From an uncultured Flavobacteriaceae bacterium (GTDB lineage Bacteria > Bacteroidota > Bacteroidia > Flavobacteriales > Flavobacteriaceae), in NCBI GenBank assembly GCA_913065125.1, contig CAJYAG010000002.1, forward strand, positions 496,001 through 560,000: a DNA stretch of 64,000 nucleotides, given 5' to 3'. The position numbers were made by a program, and so were the translations under genes. A model generated the notes under the pieces. That model was not told the origin of the DNA. It saw only the letters and a program-made list of their open reading frames with translations, and did not search any database. Shown in pieces: positions 46,836 through 63,208 of the stretch; positions within the stretch are counted from its first letter, which is position 1, and the number at the start of each line of letters is the position of its first letter.

Positions 46836-46848
46836 TTGTTAACATTTT

Positions 46849-46957: not shown

Positions 46958-46997
46958 GAATAAGCTTGTCTAAAAGGTTCTGATTTAAATTAAAGCC

Positions 46998-47123: not shown

Positions 47124-47136
47124 AGCGGTAGTTTTT

Positions 47137-48048
47137 TTATTTGTATTTACTCAACTCTAAAATTTTGTTCGCCTCAAGATTTGTCCAGTTGACTGCTTTC
47201 AGATTTTTGTTGTTTATCAATGCTGTTAACACAATGTCGTAACCTAGTGAGTAACCACCCGAAATAGGATATTTTCTTGACCCAAACATGACCTCTATTT
47301 GATAGCTCATGTCTTCGCTTTGTAAGTTAGGTTTGATTTTTTCCCATAATTCTGATTTTTGATTTTCAGTCAAAGCCATTGTCCAAGGGGCTATTACCTC
47401 TGGGTAAAGCAAGTGAGCGAAATAGTCGCCTCTTCCTTCAAATACCAAGTAGTCAAGTAATGTCCATTTTGCTAATTTTCCAAAGTTCACATTTGTCCAA
47501 TAGGCATGATTAAATTCGTGTGCAACTGCATACTCAAGCATATTTTCCCAACCCAATATGTCAGGTTCAATTGTCAAAATGATTTGTTTAGAACCCGCTG
47601 TCAAACCCATTATTCCACTCATTCCATCTATAATCTTTCTGTTCTCGGGATTTACTGGCATTATATAAATGGTCAAACTATCATTGTCAATATTTCCTCG
47701 GCTCATTTTTAATGCTCCAATTATTTTGGTTTTTATTAACTCACGATTTTCGTCAATTTTGTCAATTGATTTTTTTAATTCAGAGGTGTTTTGTATTGGT
47801 GGTGCAAAAAAATCCTTAACGATGAAAGCATATTCACTTTTTTGAAAGTATTTGTCATAGATTGAATTTTGTATTACCTCCTTGTAAATGCTATCTCTAT
47901 TATTATCATCCACGTTTACCTTTTCTATGAAGGTAGTGTAATAGTCAGTTAAGAAAATAATTTTGTCCGAAGTAGTTTGTCCAAAGGCGGTAGATAAGTT
48001 TGCTGATAATATTATAGCCAACAATATAATTTGAATATTCCTTTTCAC
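47137..48048 (-). CDS. Cassette 4: exported putative zinc metalloprotease (DUF2268-like)
   Basis: 303 aa with a signal peptide (1-23, TAFGQ). The zinc site HEFNH at 177-181 follows YAVA, and a downstream LVFEGRGDYFAHLLYPE supplies a third ligand (Glu near 204), the arrangement seen in DUF2268 proteins. Probably periplasmic or secreted. The stop is 13 bp from site 4. Substrate unknown; family assignment is from motif memory and could be off. Confidence 0.7.
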   Translation of the reverse strand: MKRNIQIILLAIILSANLSTAFGQTTSDKIIFLTDYYTTFIEKVNVDDNNRDSIYKEVIQNSIYDKYFQKSEYAFIVKDFFAPPIQNTSELKKSIDKIDENRELIKTKIIGALKMSRGNIDNDSLTIYIMPVNPENRKIIDGMSGIMGLTAGSKQIILTIEPDILGWENMLEYAVAHEFNHAYWTNVNFGKLAKWTLLDYLVFEGRGDYFAHLLYPEVIAPWTMALTENQKSELWEKIKPNLQSEDMSYQIEVMFGSRKYPISGGYSLGYDIVLTALINNKNLKAVNWTNLEANKILELSKYK

Positions 48049-48122
48049 CTGTAAGTCTCGTTTTATATATGACGATTAACGTGTTAAAATGTTACAGTCT
48101 GTCGTGCTCTAAAATTACCGCT

Positions 48123-48247
48123 AACGTTTATGTATAAGGAAAGTTGCGTGTTTGTGTGCGAGGATTTTCCGAAGGAAAATCAGAAGCTAGCAAACGAGCA
48201 ACTAACATTGGTTTAGCTAAAACTAGCAATTTTTTTTATACGGTGTT
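48123..48247 (-). repeat. attC-like site 5 (class C)
   Basis: 125 bp; hairpin GATTTTCC-GAA-GGAAAATC. The interior differs from classes A and B but the outer arms are conserved. Separates cassettes 4 and 5. Confidence 0.82.
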
Positions 48248-48258
48248 GTGGTTAGTGC

Positions 48259-48789
48259 TTATTCAATCCAAACTCCACTTGAACAAATTCTTTCCCATTT
48301 ATTTCGATCCTTTTTCAATAAAGTAAATTCACCTCCGTATCTCGCCTCAAGGTAAAAAATCGCATATTTTCCATTATTGAATATAATTGGAAATGTCATA
48401 AAAATAGTATTTGATTTTCCTTTACTTTTTATGATAACCGATTTATTCTTAATTAATGAATTGTCAATTTTTACACTTTTTAGTTCTTTCAGTCGTCTTC
48501 TTATGAATTTATAATCCGAATCCTTTAAAATATTCGACTTGTCAATTGATTTATCGCAAAATGAAACATCCAAGAGACCAGGCTTGATATAATCCGATAA
48601 AACAAAATCACCATTGATATTATTTAAAGTACGATAATAAATATGATTATTAACAGGTCGGCCTGAAATTGTATTCAAAATACGATAGGCTTCTTTATCA
48701 TTTTCTGTCATACTTTTTGAAGCTATACAACTAGATAGAAACAAAAAAGTCGCAAGAAATGGAAATAAAACTCTTAATTTTGAAATCAT
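48259..48789 (-). CDS. Cassette 5: orphan lipoprotein
   Basis: 176 aa with a lipoprotein signal (LFLSSC, Cys 21). No domain that I recognise; the mature part is basic and rich in K and N. Stop 11 bp from site 5, start 39 bp from site 6. Confidence 0.65.
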   Translation of the reverse strand: MISKLRVLFPFLATFLFLSSCIASKSMTENDKEAYRILNTISGRPVNNHIYYRTLNNINGDFVLSDYIKPGLLDVSFCDKSIDKSNILKDSDYKFIRRRLKELKSVKIDNSLIKNKSVIIKSKGKSNTIFMTFPIIFNNGKYAIFYLEARYGGEFTLLKKDRNKWERICSSGVWIE

Positions 48790-48828
48790 AGCAAAACTTA
48801 ATTTTAAAGATCATTTGGGATTAACCAC

Positions 48829-48953
48829 AACGGTTACGTATAATGTTAGTGGCGCGTTTAAGCACTAATTTAGTAAATAGAAACTTGCCAGCGGAAAATT
48901 CCGAAGGAATTTTCCAAGTAAGCTAAAACTAGCCATTAATTTTATGCTTTGTT
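48829..48953 (-). repeat. attC-like site 6 (class C, divergent arms)
   Basis: 125 bp; long hairpin GGAAAATTCC-GAA-GGAATTTTCC. The arms differ from the rest (AACGGTTACGTATAATG at left, TTATGCTTTGTT at right) but still pair. Separates cassettes 5 and 6. Confidence 0.78.
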
Positions 48954-48965
48954 GTGTGTAGTACT

Positions 48966-50543
48966 TTATTTTTCATAGATGTTTAAATCAATTATTTCAT
49001 TTTCAAATTCAAAGAAGAAAGCCATTCTTTTGTTTGATATCAAATATCCAAACCCTTTTAAATCTTTATAAGTATATTTAGTAGTCTCACTATAGCTGTA
49101 AATATTCTTTTTAGGTTTTTTATAAGTAGCTGTAATTGAATTATTTATTAAAACACCACTAATTGAATGCTTTTCTTCTCCAACTTCCCAAGTTAATTCA
49201 ATTATCTGGTCTTTTTTTGAAACAACAACTTGGGTTTCATTATAAATCCAATTGTTTGATGTTTTTACATCGATTACTTTTGAGGTGAAAGCAGCGCTAC
49301 CAAAGTGATTAAAAAATCTTAGTTTTTTGTTTGCTCTTTTTATAATCTTTTCTTCTTCTTCTTTTTCTTTAGTGATTTTTGTTTTTATTGATGAAATTGC
49401 TTCAAAAACATTTTCGTGAGGGTTTTCAAATTCCTCTGCTTTTTTCAAATATTCTTCTGCTTCTTGCACAAAGCCTAAATGAATTAATTGATAAGCAATA
49501 TTTGAGCCTGCTAAACTATTTTTTAATTCAAAGGCCTTTTTGTAATATTCAGTTGATTTTATTTCTAGGCCTAAATTCTTATAAGCTACACCAAGATTAT
49601 TTAAAGAACCTTGGGCTTTTGAGTCAAAGCCCAAAAGCTTTTTATAAAATAAAAGACCTAAGTCTTTTAATTTATATTCAGTTTCGCTGTAATTGTAAGC
49701 AGCATCAAATAATAAATTAGTATTGTTTGGTGTCAACTCGTGTGCTTTTTGGTACGCTATTGACTCCAATAATTTATTTTCAGTTTTCTTATAGTAATTT
49801 GCTAATGCTCTGTACAGCGTTACCTTCGGTTCATTTTCATCAATGTTATCTATATTTTTTATAATTATTTCTAAAGATTTTTCAGGATTTTCATTCTCTA
49901 AATGGTAATCCGAAATTCTTGAAATACAATAAGCTTTTTGCTGATTATCATTCGTTAACTCCAAAGCCTGTTTAGCCAAATTAACTGCTTTTGTATAATT
50001 ATTCGCCTGATTATAAATTAGACTTAAATAATAAAAACCGTGAGATTTCTTCTCATTGTCGTTTTCAATTTTGTTCGTAAATTCTTCTAATTCTTTGAAT
50101 GCCGATGTATCTCCATATTGATAACGTAGATAGAAAATTCTAACAACTTCTTCTTTTTTCCGATTTGGGTCTTCTATTTCTAATAAAACTTTATCCAATA
50201 ATTCTTTTGCTTCTTTAAATTTTTTCTCACGTAAAGCTTCGTGGTATTGAATAAAAATATTTCCGTCCTCTTTTACTTCTTCTAATTCCTCATTATCATC
50301 TTCTAATGATTCTTCTTTAGGTTTAGCTTTTTCTTGATTAGTTACTTCATCTTCTTCTTTATTTTCTTTTCGATGTAATTCAAATTCAGTTTCCCCTCGT
50401 TTTACTCTGACCTGTGTGAAATTGCTTATAAATGACCAAATTGTTTTCCATTTAATAATGAAAATGATAATAAAAAAAACGACTAGTAAAAACTTCCATT
50501 GACTTCCAATGGTTTTGATTATTTCAATTGTTTTGTCTTCCAT
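48966..50543 (-). CDS. Cassette 6: membrane-anchored TPR protein
   Basis: 525 aa: one N-terminal membrane helix (about 13-32, FLLVVFFIIIFIIKW), an acidic linker (about 55-95), then about eight tetratricopeptide repeats (about 95-395, for example YTKAVNLAKQALELT and YYKKAFELKNSLAGSNIAY), and a C-terminal beta-rich domain (about 415-525) I do not recognise. The largest single protein of the array. Resembles scaffold proteins of some defence or envelope systems, but no partner is present. Confidence 0.72.
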   Translation of the reverse strand: MEDKTIEIIKTIGSQWKFLLVVFFIIIFIIKWKTIWSFISNFTQVRVKRGETEFELHRKENKEEDEVTNQEKAKPKEESLEDDNEELEEVKEDGNIFIQYHEALREKKFKEAKELLDKVLLEIEDPNRKKEEVVRIFYLRYQYGDTSAFKELEEFTNKIENDNEKKSHGFYYLSLIYNQANNYTKAVNLAKQALELTNDNQQKAYCISRISDYHLENENPEKSLEIIIKNIDNIDENEPKVTLYRALANYYKKTENKLLESIAYQKAHELTPNNTNLLFDAAYNYSETEYKLKDLGLLFYKKLLGFDSKAQGSLNNLGVAYKNLGLEIKSTEYYKKAFELKNSLAGSNIAYQLIHLGFVQEAEEYLKKAEEFENPHENVFEAISSIKTKITKEKEEEEKIIKRANKKLRFFNHFGSAAFTSKVIDVKTSNNWIYNETQVVVSKKDQIIELTWEVGEEKHSISGVLINNSITATYKKPKKNIYSYSETTKYTYKDLKGFGYLISNKRMAFFFEFENEIIDLNIYEK

Positions 50544-50577
50544 TTATTTTCTTTGGTTGTAGGTTCGTATTACACAC

Positions 50578-50701
50578 AACGTGTTTGTGTATGATTTCGT
50601 TGCGTGTTTCAGCAACTAAATTAGCAAATACAAACCGAATAGAAAATCTGCGAGAATTTTCGTAAGTAGGCTAGTACTAGCAATGAATTATACACGTTGT
50701 T
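50578..50701 (-). repeat. attC-like site 7 (class A)
   Basis: 124 bp; hairpin GAAAATCT-GCGA-GAATTTTC and the palindrome GCTAGTACTAGC. Separates cassettes 6 and 7. Confidence 0.87.
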
Positions 50702-50713
50702 ACCCAACGTTAT

Positions 50714-51148
50714 TTATTCGCTTAATGCATCTATTATTTTCAATTTCAGCTCTTCATTAAAGTCATCTTCTATTAATATTGAACTGATTATTTCTTGCAG
50801 TAGTTCTTTGTCAATTTTATTGTCAGCAACATATACTGCGATGTTCTCCATTTCTATAATGAATTTATCAATGCAGTATTCAATCCCATTGACCTCTAAT
50901 AAATATGCACCTAAAGCGATTGAGGTTCTTTTATTTCCATCGTTAAATGCGTGAAATTTATTTACGGAAAATACAAGATGCGTTAACTTTTCTTCAAATT
51001 CAGGATAATATAGGTCGTTCTGAATATGTTCTAGCACACTCTCAATTTTTCCAATTTCTATAATTCCAGAATTTCCACCAGAATTTTCTATAATAAAGTC
51101 GTGAGTTCGAATGGCGTGTTCAATGTCAAAATAAATATATGTTTCCAT
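50714..51148 (-). CDS. Cassette 7: Doc-type Fic toxin
   Basis: 144 aa, Doc/death-on-curing group, with the loop HAFNDGNKRTS (from residue 66; HxFxxGNKR), the form found in kinase-like Doc toxins that modify EF-Tu. Its start overlaps the stop of the upstream gene by 1 bp, so the pair is translated together. The stop is 12 bp from site 7. Confidence 0.85.
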   Translation of the reverse strand: METYIYFDIEHAIRTHDFIIENSGGNSGIIEIGKIESVLEHIQNDLYYPEFEEKLTHLVFSVNKFHAFNDGNKRTSIALGAYLLEVNGIEYCIDKFIIEMENIAVYVADNKIDKELLQEIISSILIEDDFNEELKLKIIDALSE

Positions 51149-52176
51149 TATCTATTTTTTAATCTTTTAAATACGTCAATATTGTTTAGAATTCGGTCTT
51201 CTAAATCCATACTTTTTTCTCCAAGGAATTTGTCAAATTCTTCTGTTGAGAGATGAGTAATATAATTCTTTAACTTTTCGTGTAAAGCATCTCTGAAAGC
51301 CATATCTCTACTAGCCATTAACCCTCTTACTTTTTCTCTTAAAGGTTCATATATAGAATTTGTGAGACTTTCAAATTGGTCGAACAAAGTATTTGTTTCT
51401 GATAAACGAAGTTTTCTGTTTGCCTTTTCAGAGTGTTTTTTTAAAAAGTCAGCAAATCCGTTTTCATAACTTGAAATCAAATCCAATACTTCTGAATACA
51501 TTGTTGACCTAACACTTTCTTTATCTTTTAATTTTAGTATTTGGCGATATTCTTTAGCATCTTCTTTAAAAACGCTCTTGTAAACTTTATTAGTTAGTTG
51601 AGCATATTTAAATTTATTAGGTTCAACATATTGGTCAAGAGCATTTGTAAATTCTTGTCTATAATTATGTTCTTTCAAAGCACTAGAAAGAAACTCTTCT
51701 TCTCTTTGATTTATGTACTTTGTGTTTCCTCCAAGTTTTTGATTAATTGCATCGAGTACAATGTCTAATATAAAAGCTCGTAGTAATTTTGCCTTTTCAC
51801 TTTCTGTTAAAATCATTCCAATATTTAGAAATGCACGAAAGGTAAAAACGCCTAAAACCGATGTTTTTTTTAGAGATTCATCTATGGTGCCGACATTTGT
51901 GTCGGTACCATATGCTAACTTGAAGTCTTTCAGCCTCTTTCCAGTTAGAATTTCATATCCTGATTCTTCAAATTCTGACTTGTTATTTTCAATATATCTT
52001 TCTACAGTTCTATCGTCAATTTCAAAGAATTCAGCTACTTGTTTTTTTGTAAACCTATATTTATTTTCAAACATTACACCTGGAAAAGAAATTTCGTTAT
52101 AGATGATTTCTAAAGCATAATTATTATTGAGAATATTTCTCCTATGTAAGTCAGATGTTGTTAAATCTTTGTTCAT
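51148..52176 (-). CDS. Cassette 7: RhuM-like DNA-binding partner of Doc
   Basis: 342 aa. The N-terminal part has a helix-turn-helix (FTKKQVAEFFEIDDRTVERYI, about 42-61), followed by a RhuM-like block (SVLGVFTFRAFLNIGMILTE, about 106-125) and a long helical C-terminus. Proteins of this type are often found beside Fic/Doc genes and are likely their antitoxin or regulator. It is the first gene of the cassette. Family name is moderately sure. Confidence 0.7.
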   Translation of the reverse strand: MNKDLTTSDLHRRNILNNNYALEIIYNEISFPGVMFENKYRFTKKQVAEFFEIDDRTVERYIENNKSEFEESGYEILTGKRLKDFKLAYGTDTNVGTIDESLKKTSVLGVFTFRAFLNIGMILTESEKAKLLRAFILDIVLDAINQKLGGNTKYINQREEEFLSSALKEHNYRQEFTNALDQYVEPNKFKYAQLTNKVYKSVFKEDAKEYRQILKLKDKESVRSTMYSEVLDLISSYENGFADFLKKHSEKANRKLRLSETNTLFDQFESLTNSIYEPLREKVRGLMASRDMAFRDALHEKLKNYITHLSTEEFDKFLGEKSMDLEDRILNNIDVFKRLKNR

Positions 52177-52217
52177 TCTGTAAAGTTACGATTTTTGTTT
52201 TTTTCGTAATGTTGGGT

Positions 52218-52342
52218 AACGTTTTTGTATATGGTTTGTTGCGTGTTTTAAGCATCTAATTTAGTAAATAATTACCGACCAAGAAAGTCTGCGAGGACTT
52301 TCGTAAGTAGGCTAGAACTAGCAATAAATTATATACGGTGTT
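52218..52342 (-). repeat. attC-like site 8 (class A)
   Basis: 125 bp; hairpin GAAAGTCT-GCGA-GGACTTTC and GCTAG-AA-CTAGC. Separates cassettes 7 and 8, which share the same terminal tag ACCCAAC. Confidence 0.88.
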
Positions 52343-52350
52343 ACCCAACG

Positions 52351-52995
52351 TTATTTTATTCTATATTCAATTTGTAAATTAAAACTGGTTGTTCTCAAAT
52401 TGAAATCATCTGTTTTATATAAATCTGTTAAAGCTGTTTGGTAATTATATCCAATTCCTGCATTCCATTTTTCGGAAAATCTATAATTCATTGACACACC
52501 AATAAAGGCCTCTAAAAAATAGCTTTTACTTTGTTCTTTTAAATCGTTTTTAATTTCTAAGTTGTTATTAAATCCGCCATTTATAACTGGTTTTAACTTA
52601 CCACTCAAAAACGAGTAATTTATTGAAATAGGTATTACTAAAAATCTTTGTTCTATTTTTTCAGGTGAATAACCAGGAAAAGTTCCAATAAAGTCGCACG
52701 TTGCACAATTATACGTTCCTATAAAATCTTTATTTGAGTATAAAAGTCCAGATGATAGGCTCAGTTTTTCATTAATTAAGTATTTGGTAGTTAATCCTAA
52801 ACTATAATTGTTTCTGTCAAATTTAATTCCGTATCCATTAATATTTCCTTGAGTAATGAGATAATCATTATTCTTTCCGTTGTCGATAGATAATTTATCA
52901 ATTGAATATTCAATTCCTATATTCAATTTTGAATCGTTTTGTGCGTAAACTCCAATTTGAAATAATAATAATGTTATAAGTAGTATTTTTTTCAT
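52351..52995 (-). CDS. Cassette 8: outer-membrane beta-barrel protein
   Basis: 214 aa with a signal peptide (1-18, GVYAQ) and amphipathic strands ending in an aromatic/charged last strand (SFNLQIEYRIK), like the PorT/OMP_b-brl family. Two cysteines (CATCDF, about 96-100) are unusual for a barrel and could form a disulfide in a loop. Stop 8 bp from site 8. Confidence 0.72.
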   Translation of the reverse strand: MKKILLITLLLFQIGVYAQNDSKLNIGIEYSIDKLSIDNGKNNDYLITQGNINGYGIKFDRNNYSLGLTTKYLINEKLSLSSGLLYSNKDFIGTYNCATCDFIGTFPGYSPEKIEQRFLVIPISINYSFLSGKLKPVINGGFNNNLEIKNDLKEQSKSYFLEAFIGVSMNYRFSEKWNAGIGYNYQTALTDLYKTDDFNLRTTSFNLQIEYRIK

Positions 52996-53063
52996 GTCTT
53001 ACATTTTTTATTTGTAATTAGTAGATGCAATTCTGTTTAATTGGTAGCGTGGTAATGTTGGGT

Positions 53064-53187
53064 AACGGTTTTGTGTATGATTTCGTTGCGTGTTTAAGCA
53101 CTAAAGTTAGCAAATAAATCACAGATAGAAAGTCCGCGAGGACTTTCGTAAGTAGGCTATTACTAGCAATGAATTATACACGGTGTT
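53064..53187 (-). repeat. attC-like site 9 (class A)
   Basis: 124 bp; hairpin GAAAGTCC-GCGA-GGACTTTC. Separates cassettes 8 and 9. Its interior is nearly the same as that of site 20. Confidence 0.88.
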
Positions 53188-53199
53188 AGCAAATCGTTT

Positions 53200-53847
53200 T
53201 TATTTCTCAATTTTAATAAATTCGTACAATTCCGTGTCCTCTTTTAATTCCTCCGTTTCATACAAATATTTATCTTGCCAAATATGAAATCCAAATCCGT
53301 TACTCTGCAAAAAAGCTCGTAAATATTTATTTTCAATTTCAATCAGTAATCCAACGTCAAGCAAATTCGCAAAGTTTAAATCAATATTTTCCGCTTCTTG
53401 TGATTTTGGATGACAAATATATTCAGCTCCAGCTCCAGTTGTTTTTGAAATTATTTGATCTAAAGGATCTGATTTTCCTTTTATTAATGTTTTTATTTTA
53501 TGTCCAATTCGATTTGCAATTTTTTCAGATTTCGTATAATTCCTAAAGTCAGAAAAGTATAGAAAAGTCCGCACAATATATATGTTGTCAATCGGTTTGT
53601 TTTCGCAAACAAGTTTTGAATGTTCGTCAGGAACATACTTTTCATTTTTGCGAGTCAATTCCGCTATCAGAGCTTCGTCATATTTATTTTGAGATTTTGC
53701 TACCTTGCTATCGCATTCCAAAATCAAATGGTAATTCCCATAGTCAAATACATAAAATACAAAATTGTGCCATATTTTTTCGGGCGTATTATTCCGTAAA
53801 TGGTGAATAAGTTCAATTTCTGGTTCTTTATAAATGTATTCTCTCAA
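53200..53847 (-). CDS. Cassette 9: cytosolic protein of unknown function
   Basis: 215 aa, no signal peptide or membrane helix. Acidic, with no family I recognise. Visible features are an IWHNFVFYVFDYGNYHLILECDSKVAK-like beta-hairpin near 23-48 (hydrophobic core then acidic residues) and a C-terminal GFGFHIWQDKYL segment. Stop 12 bp from site 9 and start 19 bp from site 10. Confidence 0.62.
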   Translation of the reverse strand: MREYIYKEPEIELIHHLRNNTPEKIWHNFVFYVFDYGNYHLILECDSKVAKSQNKYDEALIAELTRKNEKYVPDEHSKLVCENKPIDNIYIVRTFLYFSDFRNYTKSEKIANRIGHKIKTLIKGKSDPLDQIISKTTGAGAEYICHPKSQEAENIDLNFANLLDVGLLIEIENKYLRAFLQSNGFGFHIWQDKYLYETEELKEDTELYEFIKIEK

Positions 53848-53866
53848 TTTTTGTCAAATGTTTGCT

Positions 53867-53991
53867 AACGTGTTTGTGTATGATTTTTTGCGGTTAAAGG
53901 TACGATCTACTTTCCGCCGTAGCGGAAAGATAATTAATTCGCGTGAATTTCCGACAGGGAAATTCCGCAGCAATTAATTATACACGGTGTT
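53867..53991 (-). repeat. attC-like site 10 (class B)
   Basis: 125 bp; same two class B hairpins as sites 4 and 12. Separates cassettes 9 and 10. Confidence 0.88.
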
Positions 53992-54007
53992 GTGCAACGT
54001 TATTTTA

Positions 54008-54526
54008 TTATTCAGTTTTTTTTAATTCAATTATAGTTTCAAATTCGAATATTTCGTTTTTAGCAACCATTTCGTGTTCGAAATCAACCATTATTTTTCC
54101 AGTTGCTCTATAATTTCTGTCGTCAATTTTATTTAAAGTCAGATTGAAAATATCAAATGGGTTATGAGCATTTCCAATATATATGGAAGCTTCCGTTTCG
54201 GAATCTTTATCGGTCTGAATCGATATTCCATCCAGTTCATCCGGATTTGATAAATTCAAATTCATCCACTCAATAATCATTATGGTTTCAACTGGTTGCG
54301 ATTCGTATTCAATCCCAGAGTCAAATGGTTTTAATGGAATTGAAATCCTATGAAACAAAGTTCTCTTTAATCCAATATTTTTATTTTCAAACCAATACTT
54401 TTCAACGGTTCCTTTTTCAGCTTGCGTTTTATTTTGTAGGTCAATAGTTATTTTCTCATAAAAAGGAACTTCCTCTGCGTTTAATTCAGAGTTTTGTTTT
54501 TTCTTCCAAAAATCAAATATTCCCAT
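54008..54526 (-). CDS. Cassette 10: cytosolic protein of unknown function
   Basis: 172 aa if started at MGIFDFWKKKQ (54526), which keeps the whole gene inside the cassette; the longer reading to 54643 would run through the recombination site. The protein is beta-rich with no recognised domain. MGIFDFWKKK is a common start among small envelope or immunity-like proteins, but this is not diagnostic. Stop 16 bp from site 10. Confidence 0.62.
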   Translation of the reverse strand: MGIFDFWKKKQNSELNAEEVPFYEKITIDLQNKTQAEKGTVEKYWFENKNIGLKRTLFHRISIPLKPFDSGIEYESQPVETIMIIEWMNLNLSNPDELDGISIQTDKDSETEASIYIGNAHNPFDIFNLTLNKIDDRNYRATGKIMVDFEHEMVAKNEIFEFETIIELKKTE

Positions 54527-54580
54527 AGTTCTTGGTAATGTTGCACAACGAAGCTCGACATGTTTCGTTGCGGCTATGAA

Positions 54581-54604
54581 AGTACTTATTTTTTTATAAG
54601 TACT
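54581..54604. other. Short perfect hairpin within variant site 11
   Basis: AGTACTTAT and ATAAGTACT pair over 9 bp with a six-T loop. It may be the inner stem of the variant site, or a terminator-like structure. Confidence 0.5.
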
Positions 54605-54725
54605 GAGAATAGTAGAGCAGCGAACAGTTAAAAAACCACTCAATGCACCAGCATTGAAATATGTTGATTGTTGCCTGCAGTACGTGTGAATATTAAAGTT
54701 AAATATAAATTAAAAAATAGAAACG

Positions 54726-54950
54726 ATGCGTAAAAAAGATTTAAAAAAAGATTCCTTAGATTCAAAAAAGACAAAGCCGATAGGCTTTAAAAATAATATT
54801 AGACCAGATTTTATTATTGAAGATAAAAATCTTGAAAAATTAGTAAAAGATATTATTTATAGGATTGATGTACCTTATTGTGATACTGATGCTTATGATA
54901 TTTCTATTTTAATTAATAATTATTTAAAAAATGGTTTTCTTGATAATTAA
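54726..54950 (+). CDS. Small basic protein, only plus-strand gene in the array
   Basis: 74 aa, lysine-rich start (MRKKDLKKDSLDSKKTK) then a segment with alternating acidic and hydrophobic residues. No family recognised. Its last 38 bp overlap, tail to tail, the end of the gene on the other strand. Orientation opposite to all cassette genes supports its belonging to the inserted element. Could be a small partner or antitoxin of its neighbour; no direct evidence. Confidence 0.45.
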   Translation: MRKKDLKKDSLDSKKTKPIGFKNNIRPDFIIEDKNLEKLVKDIIYRIDVPYCDTDAYDISILINNYLKNGFLDN

Positions 54951-55392
54951 ATGTTTTTTTTAATTCAGAATAAACTCTATAAATATGTCTTTTTATATAT
55001 AAAATATTTGTCCCCATTATTATAGCTATATCATCATCATATTTAGATTTTATTTCAACACCATTTATAGCGCCCCAATTACATTTGCCAAATGCTTTTC
55101 CAAAAGAAACGTTGTTTGAATCTATTTTTCTTCTAAATGAATGAATATGGCAAGCGGCATCTCTAAAATTTTTAATCAAATCAGTAATATCATAAATTTT
55201 AAACTTTTCATCTATTATTATGTCATCATTAAATGTTATTCTTTTATCATTTTTTTTAGCTTTAATTAGTAAATCGTTTAAATTAATTAATATTTCAATT
55301 AATACTGAATTAGAAGTGGTTTCATTTTTAGCTATTAAATTAGTTCTAAAAAGAGATTCTAATCTTAAGAAAGTAGTTGAGTTTTCATCCAT
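54913..55392 (-). CDS. Possible HEPN-like protein in the inserted element
   Basis: 159 aa of unknown family. Residues 77-82 read RDAACH within a helical segment (LIKNFRDAACHIHSF), which fits the RX4-6H motif of HEPN ribonucleases with the usual polar residue after R. The protein is short and otherwise lacks a matching partner domain, so the assignment is tentative. AT-rich codon use compared with adjacent cassettes fits recent acquisition. Confidence 0.5.
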   Translation of the reverse strand: MDENSTTFLRLESLFRTNLIAKNETTSNSVLIEILINLNDLLIKAKKNDKRITFNDDIIIDEKFKIYDITDLIKNFRDAACHIHSFRRKIDSNNVSFGKAFGKCNWGAINGVEIKSKYDDDIAIIMGTNILYIKRHIYRVYSELKKTFNYQENHFLNNY

Positions 55393-55454
55393 AGTTCTGA
55401 GTTGTCAATTTGTAAAAATTGAAAGTGGTTTTTTAACTGTTGTCGAGCTTCGTT

Positions 55455-55597
55455 GCCAGCAATCTTCAAAACTTAAGAATTTCATTAAAAATTCGGTTTT
55501 GTTAGACTCAGCAAGGCATCTACGTAATAAAACGATTTCAGCGATAGCGAAGCCGAAATTGTTTTATAGTTGAGGTCGCAGCTGAGGTATTGCTGGC
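55455..55597. other. Cassette 11: gene-less hairpin cassette
   Basis: Bounded by GTTGCCAGCAAT and its complement ATTGCTGGCAAC, so it is a complete unit of about 145 bp with no open frame worth calling. It holds nested inverted repeats: CTCAGC (55507-55512) with GCTGAG (55581-55586), and ATAAAACGATTTC (55527-55539) with GAAATTGTTTTAT (55555-55567, one mismatch). It may encode a structured RNA or be the remains of another site. Confidence 0.6.
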
Positions 55598-55723
55598 AAC
55601 GTGTTTGTGTATGATTTTTTTGCGGCTAAAAGTGCGATCCACTTTCCGCCGTAGCGGAAAGATAATTAATTCGCGTGAATTTCCGACAGGGAAATTCCGC
55701 AGCAATTAATTATACACGGTGTT
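55598..55723 (-). repeat. attC-like site 12 (class B)
   Basis: 126 bp; class B hairpins. The end of the cassette 12 gene reads into it. Separates cassettes 11 and 12. Confidence 0.88.
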
Positions 55724-56173
55724 GTGTGCAGTTATTTTATTTCGATTTTTATTTTTCAATTCAATTATTTTTAAAATTCTATTCGTTATTATTCCAACAT
55801 ACGAGGTCAGAACAATAATCAGCGATATTATGATTTGCCAATATTCCGATTTCAAGCCCTCAAATAATAATTCAAATTGAGGGATTTGAACAAAAGTCAA
55901 TATTGTTATTAACACTATAAAAATCAACAATGATTTTAAATTCCGTTTTTTTGATTTCGGTTTATATCCAATTAAGAGTTCTATTGTATAGAAAATCAAA
56001 AGTCCAATTGTGAAGATATTCGGCAAGAGCAAATTCCAAAATCCATATTTTTCCTTAAACAAATTCCCAAATGTTAAATAACCAAAGGTCAGCCAACCAA
56101 AAATATAAATTGTAAACAGAATTAGTCCAATCCAGATTAATTTCAACAATATTTCAGATTTACTTTTTTCCAT
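55706..56173 (-). CDS. Cassette 12: four-helix membrane protein
   Basis: 155 aa with four predicted membrane helices (about 10-33, 46-67, 80-97, 110-133) and a basic end. No family recognised. The last residues (HNTVYN) and the TAA stop are encoded by site 12 itself, so the site supplies its C-terminus; a different site at this point would change the end of the protein. Confidence 0.65.
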   Translation of the reverse strand: MEKSKSEILLKLIWIGLILFTIYIFGWLTFGYLTFGNLFKEKYGFWNLLLPNIFTIGLLIFYTIELLIGYKPKSKKRNLKSLLIFIVLITILTFVQIPQFELLFEGLKSEYWQIIISLIIVLTSYVGIITNRILKIIELKNKNRNKITAHNTVYN

Positions 56174-56202
56174 TTTCAGATTACTGTTTCTCTAATTGCA
56201 CA

Positions 56203-56328
56203 CAACGTGTTTATATATGGTTTGTTGCGTGAATTTAGCACCTAATTTAGTAAATAATTACTGACCAAGAAAATCCGCGAGGATTTTCGCAAGTAAGCAA
56301 AAAGCCAGCAATAAATTATATATGGTGT
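56203..56328 (-). repeat. attC-like site 13 (class A)
   Basis: 126 bp; hairpin GAAAATCC-GCGA-GGATTTTC. Separates cassettes 12 and 13. Confidence 0.87.
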
Positions 56329-56339
56329 TGGTAAAAGTT

Positions 56340-57413
56340 TTATTCAATTATTTTACAATTTTCCATAAATAATTTCTCTCCTTTTTTTTGACCTAATTCT
56401 TTCAAAATATTCCAATCTACACAAGCTTTATCATATTCCTTTAATTTATAATAGCAAAATGCTCTATTATATAAAGATTCAACTAATGTATGATTAGATT
56501 CAAAAGATTTAGTAAAATATTCAATTGCCTTTTTAAATTCGTTATTTTCTATACTTTTAATTCCTAAACTCAAAAATTTGTTTCCATTTGTAATTTGATT
56601 ATAAGTAAGTCCATACAAACCAAGTGCTTGTTCAAATGAATTAGTTAAAAGTCCAACTTTGATACCAAACGATTTCTTTCCTTTTCTGTCCATAATTATC
56701 ACAAAATTGATTATTATGTTTTCAAAATTTTCGAAGCCTTTAATGTCCCAAAGTGAGTAAGAATTATTTAAGGCATTAACTAAAATATTTTCTTGCATTG
56801 ATATCTTTTCACTGTCTCTAAATGTTATTTTAGTTTCAACTTTTTTATTTTTTGTATCTAGTATTATTTTTCCTTTTAATTTTAAATTAATATGTCTTTT
56901 CATTAACATATTATTCAAATACAATTTAATATTATCTTTAAATTTTGGTGTAAAAAAAAAGTTTGCAATTAAATTTTTAGAATCTTTTTTTAATTCTTTT
57001 TGTCTGTGTATAATATTTTCCTTTTTTATTAAATAGTGTCTTTTGAGTTTATCACTTTCTAAACCTTTCATTTCTTCACTAATAACCAAACTGTCTTTTG
57101 TGATTTTTTCAATTTTATAGGAAAAATGTTTTGAGGTTATTAACTTATTATTTTTTAATTTATAATCAAAAGTTGCATTTTTATAGTATTGTGCAGGATA
57201 ATAATCTATATAGAATTTCTTTTTTTGAAAGATCATTTCAAAAGGTTTTATATAGCCTTTATAAATAGGGATTAATTTGCTTCCATCTTTCATTTCAGTT
57301 TTAATTTTCACCCAATTTCCTAAAAATTCCTCTTTTTTAATTTTTTTTTGAGAAAATGAATTAGTTGAAATAAGTAAAAAAGCTGTGAATAAATAAATAA
57401 AAGGTAATTTCAT
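56340..57413 (-). CDS. Cassette 13: exported TPR protein
   Basis: 357 aa with a signal peptide (1-21, TNSFSQ). The first part (about 25-130) is a lipocalin-like EEFLGNWVKIKTEM domain, the middle is beta-rich, and the C-terminal region (about 285-345) has two tetratricopeptide repeats (EFKKAIEYFTKSFESNHTLV, ALY-type RAFCYYKLKEYDKACVDW). Similar two-part proteins occur in flavobacteria without known function. Stop 11 bp from site 13, start 15 bp from site 14. Confidence 0.68.
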   Translation of the reverse strand: MKLPFIYLFTAFLLISTNSFSQKKIKKEEFLGNWVKIKTEMKDGSKLIPIYKGYIKPFEMIFQKKKFYIDYYPAQYYKNATFDYKLKNNKLITSKHFSYKIEKITKDSLVISEEMKGLESDKLKRHYLIKKENIIHRQKELKKDSKNLIANFFFTPKFKDNIKLYLNNMLMKRHINLKLKGKIILDTKNKKVETKITFRDSEKISMQENILVNALNNSYSLWDIKGFENFENIIINFVIIMDRKGKKSFGIKVGLLTNSFEQALGLYGLTYNQITNGNKFLSLGIKSIENNEFKKAIEYFTKSFESNHTLVESLYNRAFCYYKLKEYDKACVDWNILKELGQKKGEKLFMENCKIIE

Positions 57414-57428
57414 TTCTTAATTTTTACC

Positions 57429-57554
57429 AACGTTGTTGTATATGGTTTGTTGCGTAGTTTAAGCAACTAATTTAGTAAATAATTACAGACCAAGAAAGTC
57501 CGCGAGGACTTTCGTAAGTAGGCGAGAAGCCAGCAATAAATTATATATGGTGTT
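57429..57554 (-). repeat. attC-like site 14 (class A)
   Basis: 126 bp; hairpin GAAAGTCC-GCGA-GGACTTTC. Separates cassettes 13 and 14. Confidence 0.87.
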
Positions 57555-57568
57555 GGCAACTGGCTTTT

Positions 57569-58369
57569 TTATTCAGTTCTATTTAAAAATCTTAAATCGT
57601 TCATATTATATTCATTTTCATAAGTTCCTATTTTTTTCAAGTAGTAATATCTTAATCTATAAGAACAAGATTTGTAGTTATTGTGTCCATTTACAGAATA
57701 TTTCAACATCTTAAATGGTTTCAAATCATTTTTTTTAAATTCAAATCCTTTTCCAAAATATTCTATCTTTCTTGAGTATTCATTAAAAGTTTTATTTACG
57801 AGTAATCCTGCAATAATTTCTTTTCCATTTTCAGAGTAAAATAAAGTGTCAATTATTGATTTTTTGTATTGAATTTTTATTGGTAAGTCAATTGCCCAAT
57901 CTCTTTCTATAGAATCGTTGTAGCTTTTTCCATTAAAATATCTCAAAGCTAATTCAGAAGGTCTTTCAATAATTTTTACTCTTAATAAACTATCAATTAG
58001 TTTTTCAAGTTTTACTTTGTCTTTTTTATAAGTTTCATAATTAACTTCTGAACTGTAAGTATATTCTTTTGGTGTAGTTGTTTCAATTATTTTTAAATAA
58101 TATTCATTTCCTATATTTTTTACAATTTGGAATGAAAGAGGAAGACTAATAATTAATAAAATCCAAATATTGGTTTTTCGTATATTTTCCTTAAAGTTAA
58201 ATATAAGTAGAATCAAAGTAGCAAAAAATAAAACTAAAGAAGTAAATCCTAATGTTTCAATTATGTTTCCAAATGCAGAACCACCTTTGTCATTTGCCAA
58301 ATGAATCAAGCACAAAATTATTCCAATTCCAATAATTCCATACAAAGTTTTGATTCCGTATTTTTTCAT
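57569..58369 (-). CDS. Cassette 14: membrane protein of unknown function
   Basis: 266 aa with three membrane helices in the first third (about 8-25, 38-59, 69-86) followed by a soluble domain of about 170 residues. No family recognised. Stop 14 bp from site 14, start 30 bp from site 15. Confidence 0.62.
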   Translation of the reverse strand: MKKYGIKTLYGIIGIGIILCLIHLANDKGGSAFGNIIETLGFTSLVLFFATLILLIFNFKENIRKTNIWILLIISLPLSFQIVKNIGNEYYLKIIETTTPKEYTYSSEVNYETYKKDKVKLEKLIDSLLRVKIIERPSELALRYFNGKSYNDSIERDWAIDLPIKIQYKKSIIDTLFYSENGKEIIAGLLVNKTFNEYSRKIEYFGKGFEFKKNDLKPFKMLKYSVNGHNNYKSCSYRLRYYYLKKIGTYENEYNMNDLRFLNRTE

Positions 58370-58399
58370 TTTTCAGAGTTCAGTTTGGTGCTTGTTGCC

Positions 58400-58522
58400 A
58401 ACGTGTTTGTATATGGTTTGTTGCGTGGTTAAGCACGTAATTTAGCAAATAAAAACCGAATAGAAAATCCGCGAGGATTTTCGTAAGTAGGCTAGAACCA
58501 GCAATAAATTATATATGTTGTT
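58400..58522 (-). repeat. attC-like site 15 (class A)
   Basis: 123 bp; hairpin GAAAATCC-GCGA-GGATTTTC. Separates cassettes 14 and 15. Confidence 0.87.
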
Positions 58523-58583
58523 GTAGTGCGTTTTTTTCATTCCGTTTATGTTTTTCAATTCAGATTATGTTCCGCTTTATATT

Positions 58584-59075
58584 TTATTTTAGTTCCATTT
58601 CATTAATATTTTTGTCAATTCTTTTCCAGTCAGTTCCGATAAAATTCCGTTCGTCATAATTTTCCGAAAATACCAGATAAAAATACTTGGTCAAATAATA
58701 GACTTCAGCGTTTCGTTTTGCATATCCTAAAGCTCCAATATCTTTCATTTGAAATTCAACTTTATGATTTTCTTTATTTTCATTAATCAACTCAACAGTT
58801 TGAGTTTTCCAAGTTGCAACATTGAATAAAATTTTTAAAGGATTCAAGTAAATCAGCCCAATGATTGTCAAAATTGGAATTACCTTTCTTAAAATCGGTT
58901 CAGATAAATTCCGATTAGCTTTAAATTCCATTATGAGCAAAGGAATTGGTAAAGTCATAATTCCGTAATAAATAATTGATTTTAGAATTTCGATTTTGGT
59001 TTGAAATAAGTCGAAAATATCCAATAAAAAAAGTGACAAAATTATGTAAAATGTTATTCGGATTATTTTCAACAT
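58584..59075 (-). CDS. Cassette 15: small membrane protein
   Basis: 163 aa with three membrane helices (about 5-22, 33-50, 64-86) and a short soluble tail. No family recognised. The distance from its stop to the site (61 bp) is longer than in other cassettes. Confidence 0.6.
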   Translation of the reverse strand: MLKIIRITFYIILSLFLLDIFDLFQTKIEILKSIIYYGIMTLPIPLLIMEFKANRNLSEPILRKVIPILTIIGLIYLNPLKILFNVATWKTQTVELINENKENHKVEFQMKDIGALGYAKRNAEVYYLTKYFYLVFSENYDERNFIGTDWKRIDKNINEMELK

Positions 59076-59100
59076 ATCGGTTTTTTCTCAAATGCACTAC

Positions 59101-59225
59101 AACGTGTTTGTGTTATGATTTGTTGCGGTTAAAAGTGCTTTACACTTTCCGCCGTTGCGGAAAGATAATTAATTCGCGTGAATTCCGATGAAGGAATTCC
59201 GCAGCAATTAATTATACACGGTGTT
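59101..59225 (-). repeat. attC-like site 16 (class B)
   Basis: 125 bp; class B, with the second hairpin changed to GAATTCC-GATGAA-GGAATTC, both arms shortened together. Separates cassettes 15 and 16. Confidence 0.87.
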
Positions 59226-59233
59226 GTAAGTAG

Positions 59234-60256
59234 TTATTTTGATATTTTGAATTTATTTCTGTTTGATATTCTTTTAAATAAAGATATTCCAACATTTAAA
59301 TCAGAACTACCATCGATTTCTGTTATTTTTTTATGATTAACTTGAATTTCATTTATTTCACTTTCAATATATTTAGGATAGTTGTTTTTTCTTTTAACAA
59401 TAATTTTGGTTGACATCTTTAATGGGATTTGATTCAATCTGCATAAAAGTATTTCATTACGAATAACTCCTAACGGTTCTATCACAACTTCTGAATTTTG
59501 GAATTTATATTCCAAATAACTATCATTAATTAATTGAAATAATGAATGGCAATAGTCCAAAATGAAGTCTATATATTCAACAACCATGTTTGGATGAATT
59601 ATAGATATATTTTCTACTCCATGTGCAATAGCATTTCTTCTTTCTGATAAGTCATCTATTATACTAAAAAGCACTTTAGATTTTTGGTTTTTAATATCTA
59701 AAAATTCTAATTCTAGTCTTTCTTTTAGAGGTGAATAAAGTCTTATTTGATTAGATAGATTGTTAATTCCTACATTTTTGAAGAACTCATTTATAGTATT
59801 ATGTCTAAAGTTTGATTTATGCTGTGTAAATACTTTTGGATATAATTTTGGATTATTGTTTGATAAGTTATTATTCAAAACCTCTATTAATTCTTTTGAA
59901 TCTATATTTTTGTTTTTTGCTAATGAAAGATTCATTAATAATTCAGAGTTTTTCTGAATATTATTATCTTTAATTACTTGAGGAAGTGTTTCATATTTAT
60001 CTGATTTATTTGAAAGTTCTGTCAGATATTGTGCTAATAAATTTTCTATAAATCGTTCTAGAAAACCATATAGAGTAATAATATAAGAGTTATAATTATA
60101 TATCTTTTTTTTAGCGATATTGAATTCAATATAGTCGTCACCCAGAGTATTGTTTTTCTTTAAATCATTTAATAATTTCGAAGTTGTTAATTGAGAGTTT
60201 ATAAATTCTTTTAGTGATATAAGTTCACTTTCCAATAAATTATAACTACTTCTCAT
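59234..60256 (-). CDS. Cassette 16: HEPN-domain protein (MAE_28990-like)
   Basis: 340 aa, largely helical, with RNAIAH at residues 207-212 in SERRNAIAHGVENIS, the RX4H core of HEPN ribonucleases, and the context (LFSIIDDLSERRNAIAHG) of the MAE_28990/RiboL-PSP group of predicted toxins. The C-terminal about 80 residues are beta-rich. It overlaps the DUF262 gene by 11 bp and is second in the pair. Likely an RNA-cleaving effector of a defence or abortive infection module. Confidence 0.8.
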   Translation of the reverse strand: MRSSYNLLESELISLKEFINSQLTTSKLLNDLKKNNTLGDDYIEFNIAKKKIYNYNSYIITLYGFLERFIENLLAQYLTELSNKSDKYETLPQVIKDNNIQKNSELLMNLSLAKNKNIDSKELIEVLNNNLSNNNPKLYPKVFTQHKSNFRHNTINEFFKNVGINNLSNQIRLYSPLKERLELEFLDIKNQKSKVLFSIIDDLSERRNAIAHGVENISIIHPNMVVEYIDFILDYCHSLFQLINDSYLEYKFQNSEVVIEPLGVIRNEILLCRLNQIPLKMSTKIIVKRKNNYPKYIESEINEIQVNHKKITEIDGSSDLNVGISLFKRISNRNKFKISK

Positions 60257-61457
60257 CTATAAAACTGTTAAAGAAATTGTTTAAAAGCTCAATTCTTTCT
60301 GTAACCTTTGTTTTATTGGTATCTCTACCTTTAAATGTTTCATAATTATCAATATGAAAAGCTTTAGTAGCTTGAATAATTTCTTCTTTTTTTGAAATAA
60401 GAATTTCACTTTTATCAACGAATTTCGAAAGAACTTGCATTAAAGGATCATAAAGTATTTTTGTAGGTCTTTCATAGTGAAACCAAACGCCTTCTCTACT
60501 TCTATGAAGCCAAAATGCTTTTTTTTCAAAAATATCAAAAGCTAGTTTGGTTGTGCTTTTAAATAGTGTTTCCAAATGCTCTAATACTTCATCACGAAAA
60601 CTTTCATTACCAGCTTTTAAAAATTCATCAAGAAATATCTCCATTGTATTACCTTGCCATCCTTCAATCTGTCTGTAAGCAATGAATCGTAAACATAATT
60701 CTGCGTCTGACATATCCTTGTAATAGATATTTTCTATAACTTCTTGTCTCGGTTCATTAGTTTGAATTTCATGTTGGTCAGGTTCAGGAATATCCCAAAG
60801 CTTACAAAAATGTTCATCTCTAGCTATTCTGATTGTAAGTGTATTTAATTTACCTGGATAAAGTGCATTTCTTATCTCTTGAGCTTTTAATTTTTCTCCT
60901 CCACTATTTATTCTTTCGAAAACTAATTGCTTTAAGCGGTTAGCTTCTCTTTCAGTTTTTGCGGTTTCTTGTAAAAGTATTATGGAAGAAATATACCTTC
61001 TGTCAATTCCTTTCCTTATTTGTTCAGGCAGATTTGAGTATTTATAACCATTTAATTCAGACCATTCTACCAAGTCTTGTAATTCAAACTCATCTTTGTA
61101 AAATTGAGATATAGCAGTTAATCTTTGTAAACCATCCATAACTTCATAAACAGAATATTCTTTTTCGTACAAAAAAATGGGTGGAATAGGAACATTCATA
61201 ATAAATGATTCTATTAATCTAGATTTTCTTTTTTTATCCCATCTATGTCTTCTTTGAAATTCTGGGTTTAATATATAATCAGGGCTTTCAACTAATGATA
61301 AGATAGTATTTAAAGGATATCTTGCTTGTTCAGTTATTATTCGAACTTCTCCTTTTGAATATTTCTCGTTGATATCCTCATCACTATGTTTTCTTTTGAT
61401 AAAGTTGTCAGTATCAAAAAGTTGAAGCTGTTCTTCTGAATGTAAATTTATACTCAT
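60246..61457 (-). CDS. Cassette 16: DUF262 (GmrS/ParB-like) protein
   Basis: 403 aa. The N-terminal DUF262 domain shows NPEFQRRHRW (64-73) and MDGLQRLTAI (107-116), the QRxxRW and DGxQR signatures of the ParB/sulfiredoxin-like NTPase-nuclease fold found in GmrSD and many defence systems. There is no DUF1524 nuclease at the C-terminus; the neighbour HEPN protein may supply that role. First gene of the cassette, 23 bp from site 17. Confidence 0.88.
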   Translation of the reverse strand: MSINLHSEEQLQLFDTDNFIKRKHSDEDINEKYSKGEVRIITEQARYPLNTILSLVESPDYILNPEFQRRHRWDKKRKSRLIESFIMNVPIPPIFLYEKEYSVYEVMDGLQRLTAISQFYKDEFELQDLVEWSELNGYKYSNLPEQIRKGIDRRYISSIILLQETAKTEREANRLKQLVFERINSGGEKLKAQEIRNALYPGKLNTLTIRIARDEHFCKLWDIPEPDQHEIQTNEPRQEVIENIYYKDMSDAELCLRFIAYRQIEGWQGNTMEIFLDEFLKAGNESFRDEVLEHLETLFKSTTKLAFDIFEKKAFWLHRSREGVWFHYERPTKILYDPLMQVLSKFVDKSEILISKKEEIIQATKAFHIDNYETFKGRDTNKTKVTERIELLNNFFNSFIDEK

Positions 61458-61480
61458 TAGTGTTTTTTTTAATTACTTAC

Positions 61481-61607
61481 AACGTGTTTGTGTATGGTTA
61501 GTTGCGTGTTTAAGCAACTAATTTAGTAAACAAAAACGAACGCGAGAAAATTCCGAAGGAATTTTCCAAATAAACAACGACCAAAGCAATTAATTATACA
61601 CGTTGTT
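61481..61607 (-). repeat. attC-like site 17 (class C)
   Basis: 127 bp; hairpin GAAAATTCC-GAA-GGAATTTTC. Separates cassettes 16 and 17. Confidence 0.86.
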
Positions 61608-61621
61608 GCCATTAGTACTTT

Positions 61622-62344
61622 TTATCTCATAAGGTTTTTCAATTCCGAAATCGAATAAGCAGGCTTTTGCTTGTGCAACATAGCGTGACAATTCGGACAA
61701 ACTGGAATCAAGTCCGTTTTCGGATTCACAGAGTACTCTTTTCCAATTGTTGATATGTCGATTATATGATGCACGTGAATAAAATTCCTTCCTAAATCGC
61801 CAAATTTTTGTTCAAAATTAAAATCACAAACTTGACAGTTTAATCCGAAATGTTCAATACATTCTTGACGTGCTAATTGATTTCTTTCGTAACTATTTAC
61901 AGTAACTTGTCTTGTTTTACCTTCCGAATAGTTTATATCAGCATCAACTTCATTCGGGAAAACAGTTTCTCCAAAATCATCTTTTACTATTTCGTAAAAT
62001 TTTTCATAAATCTTTCTTCCTGTCTTTACAGAAGCACCAGAAACTTCTTCATAATATTCTATATGCTGGTAAAGAGAAAGTAAAGCTGTTTTTAATCCAC
62101 TAACACCATTTTCATTATAAATCCGTTCGAGATAATATTCCGTTCCATATGAGTTAATTGTTCGCGTGAATAATTTTCCTTGGATTAGATTTGAATAAGC
62201 ATAAATATAATCAAGTCCAGAACTTTTTTTCATTCCCATACTTGTAAGGGATTCAGTTCCTTCGTTTAAAGACATTTGATTCAGGTAAATCTTTTTTCCA
62301 AGTTCAAATGCCTTATGAATTTGTTCATTCGTAATTTTTCCCAT
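61622..62344 (-). CDS. Cassette 17: HNH endonuclease
   Basis: 240 aa. The C-terminal HNH domain is complete: CQVCDF (170-175) and CPNCH (216-220) as zinc knuckles, and HVHHI (190-194) with NPKTDLIPV before the second knuckle. The N-terminal 130 residues have no recognised family and probably recognise DNA. Such proteins include McrA-like type IV restriction enzymes, so a role in defence against foreign DNA is likely. Stop 14 bp from site 17. Confidence 0.85.
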   Translation of the reverse strand: MGKITNEQIHKAFELGKKIYLNQMSLNEGTESLTSMGMKKSSGLDYIYAYSNLIQGKLFTRTINSYGTEYYLERIYNENGVSGLKTALLSLYQHIEYYEEVSGASVKTGRKIYEKFYEIVKDDFGETVFPNEVDADINYSEGKTRQVTVNSYERNQLARQECIEHFGLNCQVCDFNFEQKFGDLGRNFIHVHHIIDISTIGKEYSVNPKTDLIPVCPNCHAMLHKQKPAYSISELKNLMR

Positions 62345-62374
62345 TCAGTTCGAGTGTTTTTGGGTATTAATGGC

Positions 62375-62498
62375 AACGTGTTTGTATAAGAATAGTGCGG
62401 CTTTGTGTGCGAGGATTTTCCGCAGGAAAATCAGACGTAACAAAAGTGCACGGACTCTTGATTAAGCACTAAAATAAGCATTATTTTTATACGGTGTT
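62375..62498 (-). repeat. attC-like site 18 (class C)
   Basis: 124 bp; hairpin GATTTTCC-GCA-GGAAAATC, related to site 5. Separates cassettes 17 and 18. Confidence 0.83.
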
Positions 62499-62510
62499 GT
62501 GCGTTCGTTT

Positions 62511-63104: not shown

Positions 63105-63208
63105 TTTTTTATCTTATTCTCAAAATTATTTCAATTCCGTTATTCATAAAAGTTAAATTGAGTGAACGATGTTTTTCAATTAGTTAACGAGTTTCTTAAA
63201 TGACGCAC

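Follow-up and report, generated by a model that had tools for sequence, protein, structure and literature searches.

Does the segment that begins at position 54547 of this stretch represent a recombination site interrupted by an insertion, or a cassette of an unusual kind? The original prediction described a variant site with arms AACGAAGCTCGACA (54547–54560) and TGTCGAGCTTCGTT (55441–55454), split by an element with 18-bp ends AACAGTTAAAAAACCACT (54623–54640) and AGTGGTTTTTTAACTGTT (55424–55441). Both proved to be perfect inverted pairs, and convergent ORFs lie between the 18-bp ends. In the 57 kb around the array that holds the segment there were five AAC..GTT inverted pairs of at least 12 bp, spaced 60–2000 apart, all of them in three sister elements. 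The inverted pairs of the 54549–55599 unit exceed chance. We argue below that this unit is probably one member of a mobile-cassette class that lives in an integron-like Flavobacteriaceae array and carries a built-in splint. Assignment to a cassette class is well supported by the sequence comparisons, and the splint is the role that we infer for one part of the unit.

The array and its ordinary cassettes

The window (the whole 64,000-bp stretch that was analysed) is C2:496001–560000 of a 2.66-Mb genome. A cassette array begins at window position 44045 and runs to ~C2:583.2 kb; at its end, after that point, lies a gene for a 382-aa tyrosine recombinase (C2:583827–584972), adjoined by a gene that we take, from a reading of its protein, to be recJ. 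The closest named records of the recombinase were mostly from Polaribacter and other Flavobacteriaceae (best 80 of 247). Comparison with IntI4 (2a3v) left 60 residues of the IntI4 chain unmatched (189–248) versus 15 in the query (283–297). The recombinase scored 204.1 bits with the NCBIfam integron integrase model, below its cut-off of 265, and 208.9 bits with the XerA model, below its cut-off of 220. By these comparisons it is a protein without the extra IntI segment, and the array does not use a standard integron integrase. The whole array (window 44045–64000, on to C2:584972) can be described as integron-like, with a recombinase that has no integron-integrase segment.

The recombinase was found in 102 of 166 genomes of the same genus (E 1e-60), and the site family in 315 of 397 Flavobacteriaceae genomes (E 1e-6), representing 202 of 237 genera. 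An array site with its flanks (201 bases) had no match in 50,697 phage records. A strong ordinary site also occurs outside the array on another contig of the genome (G000:C1:624212–624335).

A site profile was built from 32 ordinary sites of the array plus the three sites under study. It found 248 sites, 40 of them in this array. The remainder lay in relatives (20 stretches of 19 relatives scanned, 16 with sites), and every site had the same strand with respect to the recombinase. We kept 229 cassettes from 231 neighbouring site pairs (body 60–6000 nt). In window orientation a cassette consists of a site of ~125 nt followed by the body, and the longest ORF of the body lay on the minus strand in 169 cassettes and on the plus strand in 10; the other 50 were without an ORF of 60 aa. 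In 197 of the 229 cassettes the first and last 14 nt of the body pair at 10 positions or more, compared with 175 of 2000 random pairs; these ends are the cassette-specific arms.

Several side observations concern these ordinary cassettes. Most of those in the array (arms, window 45651–63973) share one arm mismatch at position 11, G at the start and A in the complement of the end, which is a signature of the site family. The body at window 63361–63726 consists of ~100-nt repeats and has no ORF of 60 aa. Several relatives carry families of related 370–550-nt cassettes in several copies, among the matches listed; in L091 (oriented copy) a gene-poor stretch of ~550 nt with a site-like start of its own recurs in near-identical copies at 11411, 14607 and 17555. 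The cassette after the third sister unit (L006:6137–7044, from C2:563137 on) is 97% identical over 787 bp to a cassette in the array of L095, and a recent exchange between the genomes is likely.

A complete site and an inverted copy of the predicted circular joint

The features of the unit are as follows.

54549–55599, plus strand: whole putative mobile unit, 1051 bp; it starts with the C of its first AAC and ends with the AA of its last; arms complementary at 12/14
54547–54672, plus strand: complete site, matched by model R2 (AAC, 5-nt spacer, L'' TCGACAT, centre, L' ATGTTGA, 2-nt spacer, GTT)
54564–54624, plus strand: side hairpin P2 of the site, predicted from the fold and from covariation (two double changes in E3); missing from the inverted copy
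54623–54640, plus strand: 5' strand of the second stem, P3; identical to the 18-bp repeat of the original prediction
54641–54656, plus strand: hairpin P4, CAATGC..GCATTG
54670–54681, plus strand: cassette-specific start arm, GTTGCCTGCAGT
54726–54950, plus strand: ORF A, 74 aa; first 15 residues like those of the sister units, remainder different
54913–55392, minus strand: ORF B, 159 aa; relative on an Acinetobacter plasmid, differs in the sister units
55406–55421, plus strand: hairpin P5, ahead of the inverted copy
55424–55454, plus strand: inverted copy, 31 nt long, of the left half of the site, with P2 left out
55452–55463, plus strand: right end of the unit as an inverted copy, GTTGCCAGCAAT; together with 55441–55454 it forms the exact complement of the circular joint
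55452–55600, plus strand: 'mini' terminal hairpin, 149 nt, with a 12-bp stem
55598–55723, plus strand: next ordinary array site, 99.4 bits with R2 and one of R2's 32 training rows

The box names L'' and L' follow integron attC nomenclature.

We compared the left end with R2, a covariance model made from the 32 ordinary sites only. R2 aligned to 54547–54672 over positions 1–124 of 124 (48 bits, E 1.1e-7), and gave 47.8 and 56.3 bits for the sites of two sister units. Ordinary sites scored at least 78 bits, except for one long site at 37, and the best match other than an array site reached 15.5 bits. In the converse comparison, many ordinary sites were matched end to end by a model of the three elements' left ends. 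Because R2 matched over its full length and the converse model also matched, 54547–54672 is a divergent but complete member of the site family, and the claim that an insert had split it does not hold. The site has paired outer boxes and unequal spacers, as integron cassettes do. The letters changed in the site of sister unit E3 still pair, and in 11 of 11 aligned elements the right box of the short site pairs with the left box at 5–7 of 7 positions. The arms of the body, GTTGCCTGCAGT at the start and ATTGCTGGCAAC at the end, are complementary at 12 of 14 positions, like those of ordinary cassettes. The unit starts with a complete array site and ends at the array's AAC crossover position. Our own first reading (18-bp ends as transposon ends) and our second (149-nt mini as an independent site type) were both ruled out by the complete site at the left end.

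The arms and repeats are real, and the element runs past the end originally given for it, 55454, to 55600. What had been taken as a right arm, 55441–55454, belongs to the 31-nt inverted copy of the site's left half. Immediately after this copy comes a second one, the unit's right end in inverted form, and together they yield a contiguous stretch of 23 nt that is the exact reverse complement of the right end joined to the left end, that is, of the joint of a circularized unit. The 149-nt mini hairpin begins inside this stretch. Near its right end the unit holds a complement of its own joint, a further stem rich in A/T, and a terminal hairpin. Of 229 cassettes, three, all of them such units (E1–E3), contained an exact 14-nt inverted copy of their own site start; the next-best cassettes had 11 nt, and the best of ~1500 random pairs had 12.

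The two sister units stand in tandem just outside the window (C2:561419–562263 and C2:562261–563139; 842 and 876 bp). The ends of the three units are 89–97% identical and their middles are different, with ORFs of 74 and 159 aa in the window unit and of 40 and 111 aa and 84 and 84 aa in the sisters. Codons 1–15 of ORF A (54726–54770) are nearly constant in the three units and the remainder differs, as if frames had been joined to a fixed start.

Across E1–E3, all 59 of 59 stem pairs were kept and 7 had changed on both sides. None of 500 shuffles reached 59 kept pairs or 7 double changes, and 6 of 500 reached the number of pair types; stem partners that were slid along the sequences were 27–54% paired. 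Because there were only three sequences and the structure was drawn from one of them, this covariation alone is weak. Folding of the circular joint with DNA parameters gave −77.0, −75.0 and −76.8 kcal/mol for the three units, and −47.8, −45.8 and −50.2 kcal/mol when the 31-nt copy was kept unpaired. The left box of the site has two mutually exclusive partners, its own right box in the short site or the inverted copy.

The same architecture in other Flavobacteriaceae

By DNA similarity, the mini was found in 1 of 397 family genomes, the source genome itself, and the left end had no match in the other genomes of the 166 in the genus beyond short weak pieces. Weak matches occurred in 63 other genomes of the genus; the four that were read were AT-rich or coding-looking chance matches, and the remaining ones were judged from short aligned pieces only (at most 73 bases).

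We rely here on R1, a covariance model of the left end that contains nothing of the inverted copy. Within the genus, the source genome alone scored above 29.5 bits (1 of 166). In the family, R1 found 7 of 397 genomes at E 1e-5 (strict filters), the source genome and six others, the latter with 13 matches of 45–77 bits. Five of these loci were read before a structural detector was written, and all had the same plan: site, cargo, inverted copy (16–18 exact letters), second copy of the arm, small hairpin and end arm. After the end arm came an ordinary site at three loci, a recombinase-like gene (by reading) at one and no site at one.

The detector, which asks only for the inverted plan, found inverted copy and mini at 13 of 13 R1 matches. 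Beyond these and the three units of the source genome it picked out two further places in genome G285 and one AT-rich place in L164, and it had no match in 888,784 bases of reversed sequence. Its criteria (12 exact arm letters, AAC at either end, no more than one mismatch in the mini) mean that its own counts are partly by construction; independent support comes from the 13 of 13 R1 matches and from breaks of identity at those same points in the copies of G255 and G087. Cross-strand or overlapping detector matches in tandem copies were not counted as separate elements. The L164 match has one mismatch and an arm, AACTATTTTATTT, without an AACG start, and was dropped. A one-mismatch arm in a contig of L012 lies, by reading, inside coding sequence, and the architecture does not follow a 13-nt resemblance in L082.

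The catalogue holds 18 units and one more. By letters, the arms fall into ten kinds from six genomes; the arms of the seventh genome, G028, are those of G255. The left arm matched its own inverted copy at 14 of 14 positions in nine kinds and at 13 of 14 in one, compared with a mean of 7.5 and a maximum of 11 against the copies of other kinds (n = 90). The ends of the mini pair at 12 of 12 positions in 10 of 10 kinds; between kinds the mean was 7.7 and the maximum 12, the latter because E1 and E3 share those letters. Stem P3 (13–18 letters) is present in nine of the ten kinds; being A/T-rich, and pairing between kinds as well (cross scores as high as 15.5), it carries less weight than stem P1. 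The tenth kind, G285c, is without P3 and without one P1 pair and has a mini of another sequence, and we treated it as degenerate. In a 14-kb stretch of G285 the site profile found the unit's site only and no ordinary site. R3, a model trained on these elements, found no new kind. Every site that it scored at 89 bits or higher was either in its training set or nearly identical to such a row, and the clear gap to ordinary sites, which reach 61.5 bits at most, is therefore partly built in. Overall the class is rare, with 1 genome of 166 in the genus and 7 of 397 in the family. In the genus of G255, two of the four genomes, judged by score, have such elements. The design is kept in other genera with other letters.

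All evidence for movement comes from assembled genomes. In G255, six units were identical over 757 of 757 letters and had different neighbours on both sides, except in a tandem of three; one of the six lies ~590 kb away. Two units in G087 were identical over 862 of 862 letters, again with different neighbours. A seventh G255 unit (848 bp) and the G028 unit (958 bp) have ends 95–99% identical to those of the 757-bp unit and other contents. Nearly the same ends with other cargo were seen within the source genome, between G028 and G255, and in the seventh G255 unit. Cargo may have been exchanged by recombination in the conserved ends. In G255, one unit lies beside a recombinase gene with 43% identity to that of our array and starts 55 bp past the gene's aligned end, and one G285 unit adjoins a recombinase gene (34%) on the gene's 5' side, with the recombinase on the opposite side of the unit from that in our array and in G255. 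Such placements would fit entry where cassettes enter.

The cargo is small and varied. A unit in G285 (G285b) encodes a PAPS-reductase-like protein (PF01507, 1.5e-11). The orphan proteins of G141a and G028 are related (42% over 130 aa), as are those of G087 and G314 (35% over 158 aa). Of 72,556 plasmid records, one, from Acinetobacter schindleri, encodes a relative of ORF B (39% over 138 aa); there were no relatives in 50,697 phage records, none in viral_contigs and, among 166 genomes of the genus, none but itself. When cargo ORFs were scanned with Pfam (six from our units, five from relatives), neither a transposase nor a reverse transcriptase family came up, and no defence or phage family was convincing among the ORFs of our units. 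A PADLOC HamB1 match to ORF A (E 0.006, 12.6 bits) was taken as chance, as were other weak family matches of cargo ORFs; an AlphaFold model of ORF B had a mean pLDDT of 36 and was not used. As DNA, the whole unit had no phage match, and its single plasmid match (65 bases, 79%, AT-rich) was likewise taken as chance.

Taken with these data, the original prediction stands in part, both as an observation and as an interpretation. Its option of a new cassette type gained support, given that the same architecture with other sequences is found in six other genomes and that identical units occupy several array positions. Relatives differ in length and cargo rather than sharing one intact 908-bp structure, and the ends are related to those of other copies. 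Exact patterns for an empty version of the site had no match in genome_contigs and viral_contigs, from which records of the source genome were possibly excluded. The recurrence with other sequences and passenger genes suggests a new kind of self-folding mobile cassette.

Possible function and relation to known systems

We infer that the array's tyrosine recombinase moves the unit in trans, because unit and array share site, arms and boundaries. Our explanation for the 23-nt stretch is less sure: on a single strand it may act as a splint that holds both ends side by side as they would lie in the circle. Alternatively, it may switch the site from its own fold to a locked one and back. Either splint or switch could govern excision, circularization or copying; since the site can fold by itself, the splint may instead be a lock or regulator. 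A stronger version would make this a transposase-free element class, in which the splint holds the single-strand ends together for circularization by the recombinase of the host array and cargo is freely swapped; we offer it tentatively, as the less probable form of the proposal.

Could the 908-bp AACG..CGTT stretch be one very long folded site instead, with the genes in its terminal loop and the 149-nt mini as the cassette body? The stretch does occupy the slot of a site, the arm after the last GTT pairs with the mini end at 12 of 12 positions in 10 of 10 kinds, and P1 and P3 together would supply 31 stem pairs. Against this, a complete short site already stands at the left end, and its boxes pair at 5–7 of 7 positions in all 11 aligned elements. 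The start arm of the short site has GT at positions 11–12, as in most ordinary cassettes of the array, whereas the start of the mini has AT there, the signature of a cassette end, and the long form would have no unpaired spacers. We consider this reading unlikely.

Slightly less probable still is that the paired ends act at the RNA level and surround the cargo genes with a structured leader, a terminator or a ribozyme. A multi-branched, covarying structure with hairpins P2, P4 and P5 is what such an RNA might show, but Rfam gave no match up to E 1 in L001 or L006, which hold our units. Nor did a simple flavobacterial promoter pattern have a strict match before ORF A or B in the three units; two one-mismatch matches compared with a background of 2.5 per kb, and we saw no convincing motif. 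The complement, moreover, spans a DNA joint that would not be one piece in the RNA of an integrated unit.

We regard as improbable the idea that template switching on a circular intermediate left the inverted copy behind as a functionless by-product and that gene conversion has kept it alike. That origin would account for a copy that matches the circular joint and for the near identity of copies within one genome, but not readily for the same extent and the same missing side hairpin across genera with unrelated arm letters; one E3 stem position, furthermore, is a G-T pair and not an identical copy. Least credible is the originally proposed insertion sequence relative in a split folded site: its perfect 18-bp inverted ends do recur, both of them 11 kb away around different genes, but the site is complete, the repeat belongs to a longer inverted copy that is conserved and holds the same place in the site in the sisters and in nine well-formed kinds, arms and copies covary, the end of the unit coincides with the array's own AAC crossover position, and the ORFs scanned include no recognizable transposase.

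The preferred reading, a cassette class with a built-in splint, can be set beside known systems. By its site and arms the unit would be an integron-type cassette, for which integration and excision through a folded single strand are predicted. Like integron cassettes with attC, the array has sites in one orientation, paired AAC/GTT arms, cassette-specific end arms, unequal spacers and a tyrosine recombinase at its end; it differs in that its recombinase is without the extra segment seen in IntI4, and the unit is set apart by its terminal hairpin and by the inverted copy of its own joint. In single-strand transposons of the IS200/IS605 type, internal sequences pair with the cleavage ends, and terminal hairpins are present. 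The likeness lies in internal pairing with the ends and in the terminal hairpin; in contrast, no transposase was found in our unit, the pairing is long and perfect, and the ends are the array's crossover points. Group IIC-attC introns and IS1111-attC elements associate with cassette sites. Unlike these, the unit has a complete site of its own, and neither a reverse transcriptase nor a DEDD transposase was found; for group II introns, there was no Rfam match up to E 1 (L001, L006) and no such ORF family in our units. In the internal guide sequence of group I introns, one internal stretch aligns both ends. Our unit instead carries a complement of its own ends, and our units matched no Rfam family.

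In the literature, the IntegronFinder 2.0 report gives Bacteroidetes as earlier known for In0 only and now for a complete integron in Salinibacter (PMC9024848), and another report describes attC sites in a Polaribacter phage (PMC9892861). Among the matches listed in a search of the open-access literature, no paper dealt with such Flavobacteriaceae arrays or with cassettes that copy their own joint.

Cassettes are usually seen as passive cargo. If our explanation is true, the units described here would form a selfish cassette class with structural control of its own over recombination, carrying the complement of its own excision joint, present in up to seven copies per genome and changing its genes. 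Such a class would make the on/off switching of folded single-strand sites testable. It would do so within an array system that is seemingly very common in Flavobacteriaceae and whose recombinase is not a standard integron integrase.
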